This document shows, one piece after another, positions 12,936-53,820 of a stretch of DNA of 64,000 bases; positions within the stretch are counted from its first letter, which is position 1, and every line of letters starts with the position of its first letter. The position numbers were made by a program, and so were the translations under genes. Under the pieces are notes generated by a model. That model was not told the DNA's origin. It worked only from the letters and a program-made list of their open reading frames with translations, and searched no databases. Origin of the DNA: Melampsora larici-populina 98AG31 (taxonomy: Eukaryota; Basidiomycota; Pucciniomycetes; Pucciniales; Melampsoraceae); contig NW_006768819.1 in the NCBI RefSeq assembly GCF_000204055.1, forward strand, positions 414,120 to 478,119, given 5' to 3'.

Positions 12936-13466
12936 CTTTTATTGATCCTTTTGGCCTATTATTTTTTCTTGACTGTCTTTATCAAGAGTTTGTTTTTCGC
13001 TTCCTATGCGTGATTTCTACTTCTACTTTTGATTGCTCATTTCCTTTTTCTCGACTGTCTCTAGAAAACTTATTCAAAAAAATACCTTACCTTTTCTTGT
13101 CTGTCTTTACCGAGTTTTTCTTGAATCATCATTACTTAAAGCTGTTTTTCGCCTTTGATTGAACATGCTGACTCCTCAGACAGCCGAGTCATACACTTTT
13201 ACCCGGGGGTCCCCGCGGGTAGGGTTATTATTCCAAGGTTGACCCCTGACCCTAGGGTACCTGTTGAAATCTCCAATCGACGAAACATGAAGAGGGTCAG
13301 TATACAGTATGGAAATGTGTTCTGTTAAAGTTGTGAGAAAGTGATGTTTGTGTTTTAAGAAAGAGTGCTCGTTTTAGTTTTTGAGAGAAGATGTTCAGTT
13401 CAATTACCCCAATCAAAATTATGAAGACGAATCAAGAGATACTTATATGATTCCTGTTTTCCCAAT

Positions 13467-14054
13467 CTTACTTCTCTTTCCCATCTTTGGAAAGAGAAGT
13501 AAGTCATTTTTCCTTTTTCGTTTCACTATGTTATCAGGTTGTTGAACTGTTATAATTCCGTTAGACTTTTGCTCTTTTAGCCACCCAGAGATCCTATCGC
13601 ATTCGATAAATAAAACTAATCACGTCTATCTTGAAATCTGTACCTTCCTTTCAGGTAGATCAAATATTATTAGATTTCTTTTCTATTTCTTTTTGACTGA
13701 TCTTTTCTGTTGTTCAATGTCTTAGGTCAGAGACTTTAGTATAGACATCTTGTAGAGGACAGTAGCTCACTCGTGCACATTGCACCTTTTATCAGGTGAA
13801 TAAAATCTATCTTTGGAAAGAGAAACTTTTGCTCTTTTAGCCACCCAGAGATCCTATCGCATTCGATAGATAAAACTAATCACGTCTATCTTGAAATCTG
13901 TACCTTCCTTTCAGGTCAGAGACTTTAGTATAGACATCTTGTAGAGGACAGTAGCTCACTCGTGCACATTGCACCTTTTATCAGGTCAGAGACTTTAGTA
14001 TAGACATCTTGTAGAGGACAGTAGCTCACTCGTGCACATTGCACCTTTTATCAG
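13467..14054 (+). other. Non-coding W-i-X-i-Y / spliced-copy repeat module inside the hAT element
   Basis: Parts in order: hairpin W (perfect 15-bp stem 13467-13481 / 13489-13503, loop 7) that pairs its own 5' splice site; intron-like 13499-13564 (GTAAGT...TTAG); X1 13565-13654; intron-like 13655-13725 (GTAGAT...TTAG); Y1 13726-13795; spacer beginning GTGAAT; the last 16 bases of W (13809-13824) fused directly to X2 (13825-13914), fused directly to Y2 (13915-13984); then Y3 (13985-14054). X1/X2 differ at one base; the Y copies appear identical. So the second copy lacks both introns exactly. No long ORF spans it. It lies 3' of the transposase stop and could be its 3' UTR or a separate RNA. Confidence 0.85.
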
Positions 14055-14260
14055 ACCGTGGTTCAAGACTCCAAATATATTCACAGTACCCTATGCATTA
14101 AGGGTCCAAAATCGCCCCCCGAACCCTAACCCGGACGGGCTCGGGGACGGGGTGCCCGCGGGGCGCCGGGGTCGGGGCTCAGGTTGAGCTATGTATTCTC
14201 CAATCTGCTGAACCACTGGATACCAATATCCCTGTGACATACAATATGGTTTTGCAGGCT

Positions 14261-14770
14261 TGTTGACAACTCTACTGTAACTTAAAGGTTCCGTTGACGA
14301 GGAATCTTCACTGGGATCACAAGGTAGCTTGAGGCTTCAAACTACCTATAACATGTCTATAAATTCCCCCCAAACAATCTAGCTCCGTGGGAGATAATAA
14401 CGCACAAGAAAGCTGTACGTAGAAGTCAGCACTCTATTGTGTATGATGAACGATAAAAAGAGTGATATGTGAAGGACAGTGTTAGAGAGAAGAATGAAAA
14501 GAATCAACATGTATTTCATATAGAACTAGTACTAACCTGTACGTAGAAGTCAGCACTCTATTGTGTATGATGAAAGATAGATAGAATGATATGCAAAGGA
14601 CAGTGTTTGAGAGAAGAATGAAAAGAATCAACACCCAAACAACAACAGGCTATGGAGAACACGAGATTATATATGAAATAGTACAAGTATCTAATTAAGT
14701 ATAAGCATATAATGAATTTGATAATGTGAGTAATGTGATTTAAAATACGTAGGAGTATGTAATGTCAACA
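14261..14770 (-). repeat. 3' LTR of the minus-strand Copia element
   Basis: 510 bp bounded by TGTTGACA ... TGTCAACA (short inverted ends, 5'-TG...CA-3'). It lies directly beyond the end of the minus-strand pol remains and next to a purine-rich tract. It contains a tandem repeat (14413 and 14537 starts, 124-bp step) whose unit, read on the minus strand, ends CGTACAG and is followed by GTTAGT. The matching 5' LTR was not found at the other end of the element. Confidence 0.7.
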
Positions 14771-17306: not shown

Positions 17307-18791
17307 TACAGTCAAACCCTTCTAAAGCTGTACCCCTCTAAAGCCTTAACCCGTCTATAGGCATGGTTTTTTGGTTCTCCCAAGTTGGGAGGGGCCAAAA
17401 TTCAATAAAATCCCATAGTTTCTGCCTAACGCATTAACCCATACCCAGAATTCAGAAAAAGGCCTATCTTTTCAATGCAAAGCCATAGAAAAGTGGTCAG
17501 TAGAGAGGTAGGAATTCTTAAATTCTTGCTCTTGAGTATTGTTGCACCAATTAGATACATACCATGACTGATCAAGAAGACAGTTTTGTTAAGATATTCT
17601 ATCTTGGTTAGAGGGTCAAAGATCATTTCCTGTTTTGGGATCTTGAGGAGGTTGGAACAATGTGATGGTTAGAATAGTGAGTAATGTGATATTGGTAAAT
17701 TAGCGATGCAATGCAGTGTTTTAGTGGAAAAGCAGTTGGGTGAACAAAGGGGTAATGGTAGATTTGAATCAAGGGGTGTTAGAATTTTCTTTTGGGATAT
17801 CAGTTCTCTTTTGTAATTTCTCTTTCCTCCCTTTTTCTGATTCTTTTCATGTCGAAAAGAATCAGTGAGTTTCTCTCTCAACTTCATCCTAAGTTTGTTC
17901 CTATCTCAATACTAACATTTCACTATCAAACTTAGAACTATTTTCATTTCATTTGTGTTCAAACTCCTTACATGTGCTCTTCCATTTACTTCGAGCTCGC
18001 AGGTAGTGACAGATTTCTTTTGATCATCTTATATTGAGTTTTCTCATCTTAACCGTTTTCTTTTCAATTGTTTTCTTGTGGTTGTTTGATAGGTTGGTCT
18101 CTTAGTTCTTGATTTAGACTGTTGTGAAGCTGTAGTCTAATCAAGACACTGTGCACTCAGGTTAGTGGGTGTCAACAAGAATCAAACTATTTTCATTTCA
18201 TTTGTGTTCAAACTCCTTACGTGTGCTCTTCCATTTACTTCGAGCTCGCAGGTTGGTCTCTTAGTTCTCGATTTAGACTGTTGTGAAGCTGTAGTCTAAT
18301 CAAGACACTGTGCCCTCAGCTTGGTCTCTTAGTTCTTGATTTAGACTGTTGTGAAGCTGTAGTCTAATCAAGACACTGTGCCCTCAGTGATTTCTTCCCA
18401 TACTGCAGCATTCACTTGTGAAAGTCTCTACGAGTTTCTCTGAGAATCTTTTAAGTTTACCACCACCAGAGCACTATGGCATAGTAAGCATACTGTTTGA
18501 CAATGCAAATTCACCTTACATCACACAAATTGGGAATCAAATCTATGTTGTTGTCTCTTCCTGCTCAGACAACCCTCTAAAGCCATGTTGTTCATGTCTT
18601 TAGAGGGATATTCTTGATGGCTGTAGAGAGACCACCCCGTAAAGCCATGTCTTTCATGCCTTTAGCGGGATCTCAATGTATAGCTATGAATGTATGCCTA
18701 TAGAGGGGTTGCCCAACAAAGACATAACCCCTCTATAGCCATAGGTTCGCCTTTCCACCGCGGGGTATGGCTTTAGAAGGGCTTGACTGTA
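17307..18791. mobile_element. TA-flanked TIR element (Tc1/mariner or pogo-like), non-autonomous
   Basis: 1485 bp with ends TACAGTCAAACCCTTCTAAA and its near-inverse TTTAGAAGGGCTTGACTGTA, so TA is duplicated. It lies inside the RT domain of the Copia remains; joining the flanks restores LNAAVYGEQQAHQQF. Both ends hold repeated CTCTAAAGCC / GGCTATAGAGGGG-type subterminal words, densest at 18570-18790. Only short unrelated ORFs are present and no transposase. Its middle carries the W-X-Y module at 17837-18387. The terminal CAGTCAA is shared with the element at 3449-4129, so the two may be mobilised by the same enzyme family. Confidence 0.9.
17837..18387 (+). other. Non-coding W-i-X-i-Y / spliced-copy repeat module inside the TA element
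   Basis: Hairpin W (perfect 12-bp stem 17837-17848 / 17854-17865, 5-nt loop) ends at a 5' splice site. Then: intron-like 17865-17935 (GTGAGT...TACTAAC...CTTAG), X1 17936-18002, intron-like 18003-18092 (GTAGTG...GATAG), Y1 18093-18160, spacer starting GTTAGT, last 8 bases of W (18177-18184) fused to X2 (18185-18251), fused to Y2 (18252-18319), then Y3 (18320-18387). The second copy lacks both introns exactly. X copies differ at one base, Y copies at one to three. Same order as the hAT module but no sequence similarity that I can see. Confidence 0.85.
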
Positions 18792-32311: not shown

Positions 32312-32479
32312 CCTGGACAGACAGGTGTAAGTACGGAGCTCTATGAAAAGACTCGAATAGATGTAAGGAGACTGGCGGAAGAATTCAACGCCTTCCCTGG
32401 ACAGACAGGTGTAAGTACGGAGCTCTATGAAAAGACTCGAATAGATGTAAGGAGACTGGCGGAAGAATTCAACGCCCTA
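32312..32479. repeat. 84-bp tandem duplication (2 copies, nearly exact)
   Basis: Unit starts CCTGGACAGACAGGTGTAAG at 32312 and at 32396. On the plus strand it keeps a frame (VSTELYEKTRIDVRRLAEEF, 28 codons per unit) that runs on to RRDEHTTR and a stop at about 32551, but no ATG precedes it. On the minus strand each unit ends CTGTCCAG, and the outer copy is followed by GT. Confidence 0.85.
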
Positions 32480-34112
32480 CCTGCGGATGAGCAGGAGTAC
32501 AAAAAAGGACGGAAAGACTATTTGAGACGTGATGAGCACACAACCAGATAAACAGTGATAAAGTTAGGGGAAGTGAAAATACGTACTCTTGAGCTATCTT
32601 TTCCTAACGGTGAGGAAGGAAGAGAGAGCTCGAGAGAGAGAGCGTATATGTGGAAAAGTTCAACACACAAATAATCATACTAGAAGAATTCAGCAAGGGG
32701 TATGAAACAACTTCATAGTTGAACGCGCACAGGAAATAAAGGAACTATTCTCAAAGAGGAAAGACACGCTCCATTCAGACACATAGACCATCTCACATTC
32801 CAACCACCATCCTGATTCGGAGAATCCAGTTCAATCCAGATTACCTTACTCCTTTGCTTTGAAACCATCCCTCATTCTCTGATCACATCATGTACACACT
32901 CCCTTCCAACTACCAGAACTCGAATTGTTACACACACACATATGTCTTGATTGTGAAGGACTTGAAAATGATGCATATCCTTTCTACCACAACAAGACTG
33001 ACTTGTGCAATGCTTATCCAACCATGTTGAGTTAGTTAACCTGTCCTGGCAATTGCTGCCCTTCAATAGGGTTAATTTAAAGTTTTTAATTGTTCTATCT
33101 CTCAATTTGATTTAAAACCAATAGAAATCATGACTCCAATTTTCAATCTGCCTTTGATAGCCTCTTTTTGTTTTCAATATATATACTGAGACCAAAACCC
33201 ATGAAGAAGAAGAAAAAGTCGTTCTGAAACCGTCAGTCTTTCTCTTTTCTCTCTTTGTGATAGACTTTATATGGGCTTATTAGCATTTTGAATTTCTGAT
33301 TTTGAACTACAGTTGAGCCAAACTTTTCAAATTAGATGAAGACACTGGGGAATGACGGATCCACTTTGGCCAAGAATACCAATGCTACACCTGCTCATGG
33401 AGTGCAAAAAGGGAATTCACATTTTTATCTCATCACTTTATCACTTGGTGTTGATTTGGAAAACTTGCTTCCATTTGATTTCACTCCTTTGATTAGATCA
33501 TGAACTCTTCATTTCTCAGCTTACTAATTACCTAATTTTTCAATATGTCACTTTTTGTTTGCTCAATTTTGAATTAGATTGAGAACAAGATAGACCATGC
33601 CCGTCAGATGATCATTTCTAATGAGTTGAATGTGAAAAAGGATAAAGGTCTTGAAGAGAGGGAAAAGAGACTTTAGGATAACTTGCAAAAGATTTGAGCC
33701 AGTAACTAAATCTAACACAATCAATACAAGCCAAGTCCACAGCATAAGGTGCTAATACCAGCATAAAAAGCAATCAAGAATTGGTGAACTTCTGGGAAGC
33801 CAGATTGAGTAACTTCAAAGGAAAACATTTTGATGAAAAATTGTTATTCAAAGAGGATGATATTGAATCAAAGGTCCAATTATTACAACTATCACCTCTC
33901 TTCCTGATTGATCACCACTTGATGAGCAAAAACAAAGTTTACCCCACATGCACTACTCAATTAACTCCTTCAACTGGTTGCATCACATGTTGTCAGAATT
34001 TATTGTGTAATAAGAACTGAAGTGGCAATGTGTTATAAGCAACTGTTGTATTTGGTATAATATCATTTACCGCTCATCTGGTTTGACTGAACATAATCAA
34101 CTTTGGTTTAGC
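32480..34112. other. No gene seen
   Basis: Repeat-derived, AT-rich. It contains a GA-rich tract (AGAGAGAGCTCGAGAGAGAG near 32622), the second copy of the 115-bp repeat (about 33430-33545) and short frames near 33560-34018 (for example VNFWEARLSNFKGKHFDEK) interrupted by the solo LTR at 34113. Confidence 0.4.
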
Positions 34113-39738: not shown

Positions 39739-40141
39739 ATTTCACAGAATGTGATTTCTGGACATTCAAGAACACACTTTGTCACAAAAGAGTGCTTAAG
39801 TGAATGTGCCCTTACTAATTTGATAAGTATTTTACTGGCCTTCTTTTGAAAATAGCTAAATAAACCACAAAAACATTCAAAAGATTCAAGATACCAACAT
39901 TGATTTTTTAAACCATGATCAACATTGTGAGGTTGCCTTTCTGAAACACAACATACAATCTCAACACATTATCTGACCTTATAAGATCATTTAAATACAG
40001 AAAACCAACTGTTAGGTTGAAACTCCATTCACAATATCAGAGTTTGTAAATCAATTTAATCTTTGTTTGATGAACCCATGTTGCATGTCAAAACCAGACA
40101 CAGCTTGAATTTGTGATACACACTAAAGATGATTATGAAAT

Positions 40142-40465
40142 ACCTGTGAGTTATCAGGTAATCAGCTCTATGAAGCTGAGGAGCTGATCGAACAGAATGA
40201 AAACAATACCTGTGAGTTATCAGGTAATCAGCTCTATGAAGCTGAGGAGCTGATCGAACAGAATGAAAACAATCTAATGGTAAAGAAGATTGTGAACAAA
40301 AAGATGTTTGAGTTCGATTTCAATAATCATCAACTAAATAAGAATATAACCTACACCTGTGAGTTATCAGGTAATCAGCTCTATGAAGCTGAGGAGCTGA
40401 TCGAACAGAATGAAAACAATCTAATGGTAAAGAAGATTGTGAACAAAAAGATGTTTGAGTTCGAT
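40142..40465 (-). repeat. X-Y-spacer-X-Y-Y repeat block
   Basis: Plus-strand order: A1 40142-40207, A2 40208-40273, B1 40274-40318, spacer 40319-40354, A3 40355-40420, B2 40421-40465, with A 66 bp and B 45 bp, copies essentially identical. Read on the minus strand this is B-A-spacer-B-A-A, where each A ends ACTCACAG followed by GT and each B ends CATTAG. The plus strand keeps an open frame across all units (CELSGNQLYEAEELIEQ, MVKKIVNKKMFEFD), preceded by a stop, so coding status is uncertain. Confidence 0.85.
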
Positions 40466-40881
40466 AAAGAGAAAAAGCTAAAGTAAACAGCACACAAAAG
40501 CTTTATATAACGAAATCAAACACTATGACGTCACAATGTTCTTTTACAATCACAAGTGTAAGATGATGTAACAAAGAATCATTAGATCACTTAATAAGCT
40601 TATAACTTGATCTCAATTTACACTTGACAACTAATGCCTTTTTACCATAACAAACAATCACAGACTATGTACACAAACACGTACCAGCTTTCCCTTCCTT
40701 CCGCCTTAGATTGGGGATTGGACTGTCACTGATGCACAAGTGCCAGCATTTTTAGGTACGGGCAGAGATTGGTCGCGGATAATACCCAGGATCATTTCAG
40801 TCTTAAACGGGGTTTCTGAATTGGATTGAAAAGTTATTTGGTTCAATTAGTTTAATTTTGGTCATGCATCATATGAAAGAT

Positions 40882-48959: not shown

Positions 48960-51300
48960 GAAGTGTTAAGGCTGTATCAGGGATATCAAAGGTGCACTGA
49001 ACACGTCATCAAATCCGGTGAAAAGAGCCTCGGCCACTTTGAGTCCAGAACTTGGTTAAAATAAGAGGCGCGCCCCGATGAATGTTTTCTCTGGGACAAA
49101 GGCTTCTTTTGGTCATCGACAGCCATACCAGGATTCAAAAACTTCGCCGGTAACTCGACATTCAGAATCAAGGCCTATCATCGCTAAGCAGAGTCAGATC
49201 TAACCTTGATGAATCAAAAGCTGAAGAAATCCAACCAGCAAGAAGGTCGCTCATATGCGAATCGTTTGGCTATTGTTCCAAAACCTTTGATGGATAGGTC
49301 TCAACAAAGAAGGCAGTTGAGATACCGTGATCTGATGAAGCGCGTTGAATTGTTGATACTCAGCCCGAATCCTTTATATGTAAGCCTTTCTCTCCCCAAC
49401 CAATAATTGAAAGTCGAAGATAACCGAGTAAGAAAATGGATATATATTGGGCTAGGAAGAGCAAGAATCATCATCACAAGCAAAATAAACTTCCGAGCAT
49501 CATCAAAACCTATTCGTTCAAAAACCTTTCACCAATCAATCCGAATCAAGCTTTTAGCAAAAACTACATACAATCTTTCGCTTGTAAAGAAGGATAAACA
49601 CAGCATGAACTTTGGAAACTTTCCAGTTGAAATCGTATATTCAATATTGACAGAAGCAGTACTTGAAGGTGATAAGCTTATAGTCCAAGCCGATAGATTA
49701 CTACAGAACGGCGAGGCAAGAGATAGTGAGTAATTGAACTTGATCGAGTATGAAGAAGATGATGTTGACCAAGATATGTATCTTTAAGATCGCGTTCTTC
49801 CTCGCCTTTTACTCTTGAACAAGAATCTTTCTCAATTTACCAAAGAACTATTGTGGAGGGTATGTCAGATTTTCTCATTTACTTACTGTATACGTCTCTT
49901 GTTATAAATAACTGATGTTACCCTGAATTCCGATTTGATCGTATCTAAAAAAGAGAATTGGATTATGTAGGTTAGATATGAGTGAACCGATCCCTATTGA
50001 TCACTTCACAACGTTATCTGAATTATATCAATCTAAAAAACATCATACCAAATCTATCAATGTAGCATTGGAATTCGCACGATATGAATTAGATGAACCG
50101 ACACCTCTTGAAGTACTTCAAATTGCCAGCGGAATCTTCCAGGCTTCTCGACTTAGTCCAATCAATGAAGTGGTCCTTTGGATAACAATTCCTGATTTAG
50201 CTGAAAACACAGTCGAATTTTGGTATCACATTCATCCGATCTTGGAGACTACCACTGAGTTTGGGAATTTGACTAAATTGGAATTTTCGTTTTCTCATAC
50301 TTTTTGGGAACAAGAAACAACATTAGCAGCAGTGATATGTCTTTTGAAAAGTCTTGAAGTAATCAAATTATGTGCACATAAAAAAATAACAGAAGCAAGA
50401 AGACCAGAATCACAAGCAGCCTTAGGAAACAGTCTATCATCTTTAACTAGGCTCGAGTCAATGTCACTTGAAGGACTCAAATCACCCAATCCGAAATGGA
50501 CTAAACTAAATTGGAAATCAAACATCAAAAAATTATCAATTACAAATTGTAAAAGCTTTAAAGACTTTTCATCATTGAGAAGCTTTTTTAACTTGTTTCA
50601 TAAAAGTTTGATAGCTTTAAGATTTAATGCTGACGAGAATGATTGTAGAGCACTTGAAGATTGTGGGATTTTGAAGAGTTTTGAATCACTTCAACAGCTT
50701 ACGATTTATCAAAATCATCATCGAAATATATCAATCCTACAACAATTTTCAATTTGTCCCGCCATCAAATTTATACATTGGATAGTCTCTGATCCACATC
50801 CATCAAAGGAACAGATCAGAAGTTTGATTTTTGATTTACTGATACTAAAAAATTATCAAAATCGTTGGAGAAGTCTTCGGTCATTAGTCTTACCTTCAAA
50901 TTTTGCAAACTCTCTTGATTCTTCAACTTATGCAATACTTGATGTACTTCATATACTTTGTGATAATTATTCTGTTAGATTGAGTTATCTAGATGATAAT
51001 GAATATGATGTGAAAAAGCATTTAAAGTTTTACATATAATACTTGATTTTTATTTTGTATATATTTCATAGAAGCATTCCATGTATATCTCCCCCCTGTG
51101 ATCATTTGTATCTGACTCTTATATTAATAATCAATTCTTGACATTGCAGCACGTATACAACTTGAACTAAAATTCTAAAATTCAGAGTGGTAGAACATGA
51201 TGTTGGTTGAGGTGAATAGGCTCTGGATAGCCGGTAGGGCATGAATTCGAGTCACTGAGAAGATATTGTACAACATGGGAGCACGGTCACTGTCAAATGG
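48960..51300 (+). repeat. Tandem segmental duplication, unit 1
   Basis: Partner unit at about 51530-53820. Shared order of blocks: TGTATCAGGG(A/G)(T/C)ATCAAAGGTG at the left, CTGATGAAGCGCG, GATATATATTGGGCTAG, the whole three-exon gene, and TGGTTGAGGTGAAT at the right. The units follow each other directly. Confidence 0.8.
49605..51039 (+). CDS. F-box/LRR-like protein A
   Basis: Three exons: 49605-49725, 49789-49859 and 49954-51039 (introns 63 and 94 bp), 425 residues. Residues 1-70 (NFPVEIVYSILTEAVL ... LPRLLLLNKNLSQFTKELLW) resemble an F-box (P-x-E-I-...-L-..L..NK). The rest has irregular Leu-rich strands (LTKLEFSFS, LTRLESMSLEGL, IKKLSITNCKSF, LQQLTIYQNH, WRSLRSLVLPS), like divergent LRR substrate-binding domains of SCF ubiquitin ligases. 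Exon 3 starts upstream of the first internal ATG, at AGA ATT GGA, because this matches the paralogue in frame. Direct tandem paralogue at 52151. Lys/Asn/Ile-rich codon use, like other AT-rich genes here. Confidence 0.75.
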
Positions 51301-51529: not shown

Positions 51530-53820
51530 CCCTCGGTTGCTTCTCAGCTGTATCAGGGGCATCAAAGGTGAACTGAACAATTTTATGAAATCACATCAGT
51601 GAACTCGGTCAAGACAACTTTATAAGAATTCAGACGCGTGTGCTGATGAAGGCCTTTGTGATCTGGAATAAAGGCGATGTTTGGTCTTCGAAGGGCAGTA
51701 CTAGGAATCAGACACTTCGCTTCGTAAGTCGATACTCAAGGCCTATCATTGCTCAGGAGACTTTGAGCCAACGATGATGAATCAATTACTCAGAAATTGC
51801 TCAAATGCGAGGCGTTCGTCCAGAACCTTTGATGGATCAATCTCGTTATAGAAGACAGTAGAAGTACAGTAAGCTGATGAAGCGCGAAAACTTGTTGGTA
51901 CTCAGCCTGAGTTCTTGATATAACAGCCTTTATGTTGCTGATCAATAATCGAAAGTCAAATATTAATGAGTAAGAAAGTTGATATATATTGGGCTAGAAA
52001 GAGAAATATCGATCATTATCGAGCAAAATAAACATTCAAGTATCATCAAAACCCGATCATTTCCAAACCCTTCCACCAAGACATCCAAATCAAGTTAGGA
52101 AATAATTGTTCACTTTTCTTATTTAAAAACAAACAAACAAGAAAACAAGGATGAGCTTTGCAAACTTTCCAGTCGAAATTGTACATCTGATATTATCAAA
52201 AGCAGTGCTAGAAGGTGATAGGCCCATTGCACAAATCAATAGATTGCCACAGAATGGCGAGGCAAGAGATAGTGAGTGATTGCACTTAATCGACTATGAG
52301 AAAATGATTTTAATTCAGATATATCTCTTTAGACATCGTTCTCGCTCGTCTTTTACTGTTAAATAAAGACCTTTCTGAATTTCTAAAAGGAATAATGTGG
52401 AAGGTATGAAGCATTTTCTCATTTTGTTTGTTATATATTTCCTGTTAGATTTACTGATTCTATTCTCAACTTCTATATGATGTTATTAAATTAAAGAGGA
52501 TTGGATTAACTCGGTTGAATAAACGTGAACCAATTGCTATTGATTACTTTAGAAAGGTATCTAAATTATATCAAATTCACAAACATTATACTAAATCGAT
52601 CAATATATCATTGAGATTTGCAACACGCGAATTGATTAAGCCGAAACCAGAGGATGAGGAATTGATTGATATTGCAAATGACATATTCAAGGCTTCCCAA
52701 CCTGATCAAATCAATGAAGTAATCCTTTGGGTGGCAGTTCCTCCTACACTTCCTTCAAGTACCATCGAACAATTTTGGGAACGCATTCATCCAATCTTAG
52801 ACACTGTCACTGGATTCAAAAACTTGACTAGATTTGAATTTTGGTTTTCTCGAAGGCTTGAAGAAACAAAATTAGCAGTAGTGATCAGTCATTTAAAGAA
52901 TCTTGAAGTTGTTAAATTATATGCACGTCATAAAGGATTGAAATCAGTCGAAGAATCAGAATTTCAAGAAGACTTAGGAATCAGTTTATCATCTTTAACT
53001 AAATTGAAATCACTTTCACTTGGAAGACTTAAATCACCTAATCCAAGTTGGATCAAATTAAATTGGAAATCAAATATCGAAAAACTGTCAATTTTCAAAT
53101 GTAAAAGATTTCAAGATTTTTCATCACTGAAGATTTTTTTTCATTTGTTTCATAAAACTTTAAGAGCCCTAAGATTTGATGTTGTAGAGAATGATGATAG
53201 GATTTTTAAAGAATGTGAGATTTTGGAAAGTTTCAGATCACTCAAACAACTTACAATCTTTCAATATCATCATCGTAATACATCAATACTACAACAATTT
53301 TCTATTTGTCCTGCAATCAAATCTATCAATTGGGTAGTGTCTGATTTACATTCATCAAGTGAACGAATAAGTAGTTTGATCTATAATTTACTCATAACTA
53401 GAAATTATCAAAATCGTTGGAGAAGTCTTCGTTCATTGACATTACCTTTGAGTTTTGCAGTTTCTATGGACGATTCAACTGATACGGTACTTGATATACT
53501 TTGTAAGAAATATTCTGTTAGATTAAACTATTCAGATCATGATGGATATGATATGGTATAAGTCTTTGAAGTTTCACATTGTAAAACATTTCTTCCCTGT
53601 GTTCTATATACTTATTGGTTGTCTTAGTGAAGGATTTTATGTTTAAGTATATCACCCCCTGCTGGCTTGTCTTACTGATTGTCAATTCATCCTTGACATT
53701 TTGTACTGAATAGTAGCATGAAAAAAGTGAGCTACATCTGTTAATAATCAAAGTGCTGGTTGAGGTGAATGGATCATGGATGGCAGTTGAACATGAACTC
53801 ACGCCACTGAAAATGTAATG
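51530..53820 (+). repeat. Tandem segmental duplication, unit 2
   Basis: Second copy of the ~2.5-kb unit, with many substitutions, so the duplication is not recent. Confidence 0.8.
52151..53561 (+). CDS. F-box/LRR-like protein B
   Basis: Exons 52151-52271, 52333-52403 and 52497-53561 (introns 61 and 93 bp), 418 residues. Colinear with protein A with identical intron phases: F-box-like start (MSFANFPVEIVHLILSKAVL, ARLLLLNKDLSEFLKGIMW), then Leu-rich repeats (LTRFEFWFSR, LTKLKSLSLGRL, IEKLSIFKCKRF, LKQLTIFQYHH, WRSLRSLTLPL). It ends earlier than A (after SDHDGYDMV). Both copies remain open, suggesting both are used. Substrate unknown. Confidence 0.75.

Follow-up and report, generated by a model that had tools for sequence, protein, structure and literature searches.

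Intron-like insertions and an intronless second copy in the leader of copia long terminal repeats of Melampsora larici-populina

Retroelements that keep an intron include the plant Ogre elements and Ty elements of Yarrowia, in which the intron lies outside the long terminal repeat (LTR) and is not known to be accompanied by a regenerated copy. Retention of an intron is what they share with the LTRs described here, which we met in a stretch of 64,000 nucleotides (the window) of Melampsora larici-populina 98AG31 (contig NW_006768819.1, positions 414,120 to 478,119). The subject is a block at 17837..18387 of the window, in which the segments W-i1-X1-i2-Y1 are followed by a spacer and by a second copy, w-X2-Y2-Y3, that contains neither of the insertions i1 and i2. 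The block belongs to the leader of an LTR of the Ty1/copia type (Pseudoviridae), a relationship seen in the domain order gag - gag_pre-integrase - SH3 - RVT_2, the primer-binding site (PBS), the polypurine tract (PPT), the 5-bp target-site duplications (TSDs) and an LTR starting with TG. What sets it apart from Ty1/copia is the position of the introns, within the leader of the LTR, and the presence after them of another leader copy that is free of introns. To our knowledge no described copia element combines these two features, and we know of no complete introns within the LTR, or of an intronless second copy, in foamy viruses.

Foamy viruses offer a precedent for structural gating: according to PMC3694450, the major splice donor lies in R, polyadenylation is suppressed by U1 bound at the 5′ LTR, and the 3′ LTR adopts another structure that keeps U1 from binding. 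Gating in those viruses controls polyadenylation, whereas in the present LTRs it is only predicted. Spliced RNAs of HIV-1 enter reverse transcription, as PMC1868081 reports; there whole spliced RNAs are copied, whereas here only the leader copy would be spliced and the introns would be regained from the other end. In PMC5542766 the phrase “intron in the LTR” matches solely because an engineered vector has an “intron in the LTR1.20 leader”. A literature search, outside which most subscription papers fall, returned no report of LTR introns with a renewed spliced copy.

The block lies inside a copia LTR

Re-reading of the window together with repeat analysis confirmed the architecture that an earlier note, made from the letters of this DNA, had described: GT-AG segments of 71 and 90 bp, repeats of 67 and 68 bp and a third Y. 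The 3′ end of W at 17864 is AAGAATCA. The W|X join of the second copy allows no slide, as the note had claimed, and the X|Y join can be slid over three equivalent positions, one of which is GT-AG. The setting is not the one proposed, a TA-flanked transposon: the block is internal to an LTR that inserted there. This LTR is complete, has a TSD on both sides, lacks an internal region and has an empty site elsewhere, all of which identify a solo LTR. Of the 34 matches to the TA-flanked element (one being the window itself) two copies were read, L090 and L091, and both run uninterrupted through the insertion point; the block as cargo of this DNA transposon is thereby ruled out. The start of the LTR was also set by comparison with LTR pairs having PPT, PBS and TSDs.

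We searched the genome to which the window belongs (98.3 Mb, 243 contigs) with the block. Results showed 48 matches (49 candidates, 40 scored), many of them spanning most of the block at 66-72% identity. Six pairs of places lay on single contigs, 5.2-5.5 kb apart; three of these pairs share 816-918 bp at 99.2-99.4% identity and two more share the same stretch in pieces. All four pairs inspected showed the LTR start TGTTA[AC]GATA, the PPT TTTGAGGGGGTG before the 3′ LTR, the PBS TGGTAGC[GA]AGAGT after the 5′ LTR and 5-bp target duplications. The open reading frames (ORFs) between them encode copia polyproteins with the order gag - gag_pre-integrase - SH3 - RVT_2 (L075, L077), the integrase region thus preceding reverse transcriptase in a single polyprotein and the rve domain of L077 being found below its cut-off only. 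The window by itself might suggest a chance tandem duplication within a DNA transposon; nothing beyond that local view speaks for it, the genome-wide matches and the LTR pairs rule it out, the empty site likewise contradicts it, and we give it practically no credence.

The elements fall into groups. Polyproteins of groups I and II are 31% identical over 1147 positions (one element per group). A third group (L043-L045, L078 and a minus-strand stretch of the window) was assigned the copia order from ORF reading alone, and the TGGTAGC PBS was not found in its member L078. Among 8000 scored candidates 4760 were polyprotein relatives; among the best 120 of these 4760, the top named records came from an alga, an oomycete, an arachnid and a plant, two records came from Puccinia striiformis and one from Microbotryum, and the closest by identity reached 62-66%. 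A scan of viral contigs with 500 polyprotein residues found no relative.

To collect LTRs of this kind, a script looked for repeats in which one copy has GT-AG insertions, and the hits were then cut into segments. Applied to loci found with the block, this search, of a kind that the earlier note had proposed, yielded the layout in 36 LTRs of 23 families, 19 families in group I and 4 in group II, families being defined by greedy grouping of X+Y at 12% mismatch or >3 gaps. Both introns are present in 34 of the 36; the remaining two, the LTRs of L077 (a group II family), lack i1. The layout hairpin W-i1-X-i2-Y-spacer-w-X-Y, often with one further Y, recurs in 22 LTR families, with one more family lacking i1. 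L036, L041, L043, L044 and L045 (no W-i1-X-i2 layout) and the entries for i3 (the spacer, w and X2 taken together) were excluded before counting. Since L077 has no i1, it does not enter the counts of hairpins, branch points and w starts, so that these refer to 22 families and the segment and distance counts to 23; the tables of i1 starts and ends still include a spurious L077 i1. The set contains 26 of the first 30 block-search loci; the others are L004 (best join non-GT-AG), L022 (a near copy of L021, of which only the i3 entry was kept), L025 (truncated) and L029 (X1-X2 deletion). As the block had been the starting point of that collection, LTRs were also chosen by motif (15 by PPT, 13 by PBS); among these 28, 23 showed the full layout, 22 by script and L047 by eye. 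This is a check on selection and not an independent sample, since the motifs are those of group I pairs, several elements contribute both ends and most of the LTRs belong to the 36 as well.

Intron signals, a hairpin and the likeness of the two copies

The 5′ splice site of i1 reads GT[AG]AGT in nearly all families, GT-AG itself being imposed by the search. A CTRAY branch point within the last 55 to 8 nt was found in i1 of 19 of 22 families (4.9 expected) and in i2 of 15 of 22 (2.8 expected), and i1 is exactly absent from L077. A 5′ splice site consensus, a branch point and exact absence from a copy were thus found for i1 and i2, which, read from the letters, bear intron signals and are exactly missing from the second copy. 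These observations bear on a reading in which the LTRs hold tandem repeats whose first-copy insertions have some other function, for example as protein-binding sites, and GT-AG is incidental. That the starts and ends of Y are constrained too, and that W is the most conserved of the segments compared, would fit it; the branch points, the splice site consensus and the exact loss of i1 in L077 speak against it, and we regard it as very improbable.

Other segments also look intron-like, given that Y starts with GTNNG in 23 of 23 families and that the spacer resembles a 5′ splice site, its position +6 being T in all 23 families and its position +5 being G in 19 of them (the first GT being imposed). 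In L053 and L085 the second copy joins X2 to Y2 at the next AG, 5 nt further downstream than in L030, a member of the same family that uses the first AG; L006 shows a similar shift at Y2|Y3. We read these shifted joins as probable alternative acceptors, but no case is proof by itself, because loss of five bases between short repeats could produce such a join too. In group III the Y2|Y3 join corresponds to removal of the spacer plus X2 and cannot be slid, whereas that of the window LTR can. The group III join suggests that the template already carried a second copy, that is, that the process would be recursive.

Folding for a common structure, another proposal of the earlier note, revealed a stem of 10-13 pairs in W, its final base on the G of the 5′ splice site, in 22 of the 22 families tested, with z-scores from -1.9 to -7.5. 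An unguided scan of the 28 LTRs chosen by motif ranked it first among the hairpins on a GTR site in 26. Seven of 12 stem positions hold different Watson-Crick pairs across families, mostly between groups I and II, and six cells are unpaired; pairs were counted by distance from the splice site because a MAFFT alignment had misplaced the group II stems. With the loop set at five bases or more, w begins to match W within the loop in 10 of 22 families and 1-4 nt ahead of it in 9. Since the second copy begins in or near the loop, the loop may mark an RNA 5′ end, possibly the transcription start, and a nearly fixed copy start is what reverse transcription up to an RNA 5′ end would give. The same constancy would be predicted if the spliced copy were a by-product without a role, end-to-end jumps of reverse transcriptase joining spliced strong-stop cDNA to the RNA 3′ end anew in each lineage. 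Against this stand the layout, which is the common form (23 of 28), and the spacer, which keeps its 5′-splice-site form; together they suggest descent with maintenance rather than repeated chance, and we hold the by-product account to be distinctly unlikely.

The two leader copies within an LTR are much alike, and in young copies almost identical. X2 is nearest to its own X1 in 23 of 23 families, with a mean difference of 2.4% compared with 17% to the nearest other family; Y2 is nearest to Y1 of its own family in 23 of 23 and Y3 in 15 of 15. Between families of group I the mean difference is 25% in X and 21% in Y. To set aside changes acquired since insertion, we counted as pre-insertion differences only those common to both LTRs of one element. 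In nine LTR pairs with two Ys, shared differences amounted to 0/652 in X, 1/610 in Y2 and 0/542 in Y3 (eight pairs for Y3), a total of 1/1,804; outside these counts, L053/L085 share the shift of the acceptor by 5 nt, which does not represent a substitution. Private, post-insertion differences in the nine pairs numbered 8 (X), 6 (Y2) and 6 (Y3). Two pairs need qualification: L027/L067 lie 12 kb apart and were paired by position and 99.2% identity, and L006/L007 have the third Y at one end only. Many private differences between copies, in an uncounted impression, look like C-T or G-A changes, as in damage resembling repeat-induced point mutation (RIP) or deamination.

The near absence of pre-insertion differences excludes, for the two-Y families, an ancient duplication evolving by itself. 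Renewal of the second copy in about each cycle would be the simplest reading; this copy seems to be written anew free of introns, and reverse transcription of a spliced 5′ leader would be the simplest way to do so. A different account supposes a single ancient retrocopy, whose likeness to the first copy was later kept by DNA gene conversion or template switching, with no new splicing. Repeat-mediated rearrangements are indeed frequent, and LTRs of one element differ by X1-X2 or Y-Y exchange. Conversion, however, should move introns between copies too, and insertions in the second copy (sense strand) were seen, among the matches listed, only in the three-unit LTR of L078, with the reserve that the 36 LTRs were selected to lack them and that first-copy intron losses are under-counted in this comparison. 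The different splice acceptor in the second copy of two families and the scarcity of pre-insertion differences also count against it. We consider this account unlikely, though it deserves more weight than the by-product one.

How the introns could survive, and what speaks against it

The model that we favour, and think probably correct as a whole, is that the leader copy is rewritten from spliced RNA in each cycle and lands on the intronless copy, so that the introns survive. Transcription would begin in or near the hairpin loop, and the 5′ leader would be spliced to w-X-Y-..-U5. Reverse transcriptase would copy this spliced leader to the RNA 5′ end, producing minus-strand strong-stop cDNA, which would pair with the second copy in the 3′ LTR of the RNA, the only copy there with which spliced cDNA can pair without interruption. 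Extension across the spacer into the still unspliced Y1-i2-X1-i1-W-U3 would restore i2 and i1. In the new LTR the first copy, with its introns, would stem from the 3′ LTR and the second, newly spliced, from the 5′ end, and the second copy would be a landing site overwritten in every cycle.

The most speculative step concerns why the 3′ LTR would stay unspliced. If transcription starts in the loop, the RNA lacks the 5′ arm at its 5′ end, so that the full hairpin would exist only in the 3′ LTR and might there hide the 5′ splice site of i1. Retention of introns through a self-overwriting landing copy combined with a hairpin that is whole only at the RNA 3′ end, permitting splicing at the 5′ but not at the 3′ end, is a tentative proposal that we would sooner doubt than accept. 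In 17 of 22 families the full context gave the 5′ splice site a lower predicted accessibility, as mean unpaired probability over 9 nt, than did the 5′ RNA.

Several observations weigh against this model or parts of it. Judged by GU alone, the splice site was less accessible in the full context in 7 of 22 families only, so that masking is weak and, with the two measures at 17 and 7 of 22, gating by the hairpin remains a guess. In 3 of 22 families (L001, which is the window LTR, L020 and L026) a strict match of w to W does not extend beyond the 3′ arm; in the window LTR a loose match of 15 nt reaches the loop. The cut-out itself imposed GT-AG on i1 and i2, AG|GT after Y1 and the absence of the insertions from the second copy. 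For splicing of i3, the branch-point motif showed no clear excess in X (7 of 22 families, 4.4 expected), and Y looked intron-like (14 of 22, 3.7 expected). Splicing of i3 to the end of X2 should moreover add one Y per cycle, yet in the LTRs of the set only 1-2 Ys follow X2. Joining Y1 to Y2 would add one Y per cycle, and joining Y1 to Y3 would keep two but leave the identity of Y3 with Y1 (0/542) unexplained; the number could be held constant by slippage, or by excision of one Y in the manner of an intron (GTNNG..CTRAY..CAG).

Other points on the same side come from exceptional LTRs. The one-Y pair L013/L014 has 3 pre-insertion differences in 146 sites (2/72 and 1/74), and L002, L017, L019 and L026 show 6-11 differences in X; either rewriting is not universal or these copies are old. 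Seven of the X differences are common to L017 and L019, which are 97.7% identical over 1.9 kb and may be one insertion in two haplotypes. That one-Y LTRs simply ceased rewriting is a weakened idea: L013/L014 favour it, but L015 and L016 could be old copies. Partner LTRs of L015, L016, L005, L017, L018, L019 and L069 were not found at the places examined. LTR structures also differ within one element (L006/L007, L009/L068, L047/L062, L056/L088, L078), which indicates frequent repeat-mediated or template jumps that could also homogenise the copies. The layout is incomplete in five of the 28 LTRs chosen by motif: L056 and L068 are W-i1-X-Y-Y, L062 is W-i1-X-i2-Y with both introns and no second copy, although its partner LTR has one, L071 has i1 and no i2 in the first copy, and L065 has neither introns nor second copy. 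Finally, group III shows XY-spacer-XYY without i1 and i2, and no hairpin was seen in it by eye.

The rewriting model implies that elements without a second copy or hairpin should lose their introns. Group III and L065 agree with this, but they are few. L071 and L077 lack one intron though the hairpin is kept (in L071 that intron may never have been present), L062 has both introns in spite of lacking the second copy, and the exact loss of i1 in L077 is as would be expected if the safeguard fails.

Some rearranged LTRs were recorded in their own right. The 5′ LTR of the C7 element at L021 (875-1405 and 1402-2157) has a partial internal duplication, consisting of the stretch from the LTR start to about the middle of Y1 followed by the LTR from within U3. 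L032 (minus strand, group II) holds two successive intronless copies, w-X-Y-spacer-w-X-Y, which would be expected from splicing of i1 and i2 with i3 unspliced, or from unequal exchange. The 3′ LTR of L078 (5440-6220) has one extra spacer-X-Y-Y unit compared with the 5′ LTR of the same element.

Other LTRs of the window and what they mean

Coordinates of the features are collected in Table 1.

Table 1. Features of the window discussed in the text (positions within the 64,000 nucleotides)
Feature	Positions	Strand	Remarks
TA-flanked CAGTCAAACCC terminal-inverted-repeat element	17307..18791		recipient of the LTR; bystander
Left TSD	17582..17586		5 bp, AGTTT
Solo LTR, Ty1/copia group I	17587..18453	+	867 bp, TGTTAAGATA..AATCTTTTA; ends set by empty site of host element
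Promoter-side part of LTR (U3-like)	17587..17836	+	CT-rich ahead of W; proposed from position relative to LTR start
W hairpin	17837..17865	+	CTGATTCTTTTC-loop-GAAAAGAATCAG; inverted repeat; final stem base is G of i1 5′ splice site
Hairpin loop	17849..17853	+	possible transcription start; second copy starts in or near loop in most families
Intron i1	17865..17935	+	71 bp, GTGAGT..TACTAAC..CTTAG; missing from second copy, join unslidable
Exon X1	17936..18002	+	67 bp
Intron i2	18003..18092	+	90 bp, GTAGTG..GATAG
Segment Y1	18093..18160	+	68 bp; exonic in second copy; intron-like termini (GTNNG start, CAG end)
i3 (spacer + w + X2)	18161..18251	+	91 bp, GT..AG; excision would yield Y2|Y3 join
Spacer + w	18161..18184	+	
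w	18169..18184	+	second copy of W 3′ half, few mismatches
X2	18185..18251	+	second X copy; 1/67 different from X1
Y2	18252..18319	+	
Y3	18320..18387	+	
Remaining U5	18388..18453	+	up to LTR end
Right TSD	18454..18458		AGTTT
Solo LTR, copia group II	13262..14085	+	“hAT module” of the earlier note; TSD GTACC both sides; same layout, own hairpin
LTR stretch, copia group III	40122..40619	-	XY-i3-XYY without i1/i2; limits approximate

A second module of the window had been taken for part of a hAT transposon. It is a solo LTR of copia group II with the TSD GTACC; its alignment to L032 begins at 13262 and finishes at about 14086. The module at 13.5 kb as hAT cargo is ruled out, since it sits inside this LTR. 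Two independent hosts with the same arrangement had been thought to suggest a mechanism rather than an accident. The pattern does recur and a mechanism is indicated, but the hosts are bystanders and do not make two independent cases, because both modules are solo LTRs with their own 5-bp TSDs, from two copia groups of one genome. It had gone unnoticed that the modules are LTRs, that a hairpin lies close to where w starts, that the spacer resembles a 5′ splice site and that the copies within each LTR are nearly identical.

Further repeats were observed in the window. At 14410-14633 (minus strand) two 100-bp copies are 92% alike, and the spacer between them starts with GTTAGT on that strand; this is possibly another such LTR without introns. 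A tandem pair of copies at 32312-32483 (minus strand), with a period of 84 bp and 98% likeness, has CCAG at the end of each copy on that strand and may be the Y-Y pair of a further LTR family. A direct repeat of 2.1 kb with 71% identity occupies 48971-51035 and 51547-53579.

Copying through RNA should erase introns, and introns located where an element copies its own 5′ end are a paradox, to which these LTRs offer a concrete and testable answer. The second leader of each genomic copy may preserve how the parent RNA was spliced, including alternative acceptors. Genome sequence by itself would then serve as a natural record of splicing, of the transcription start and of strand transfer.
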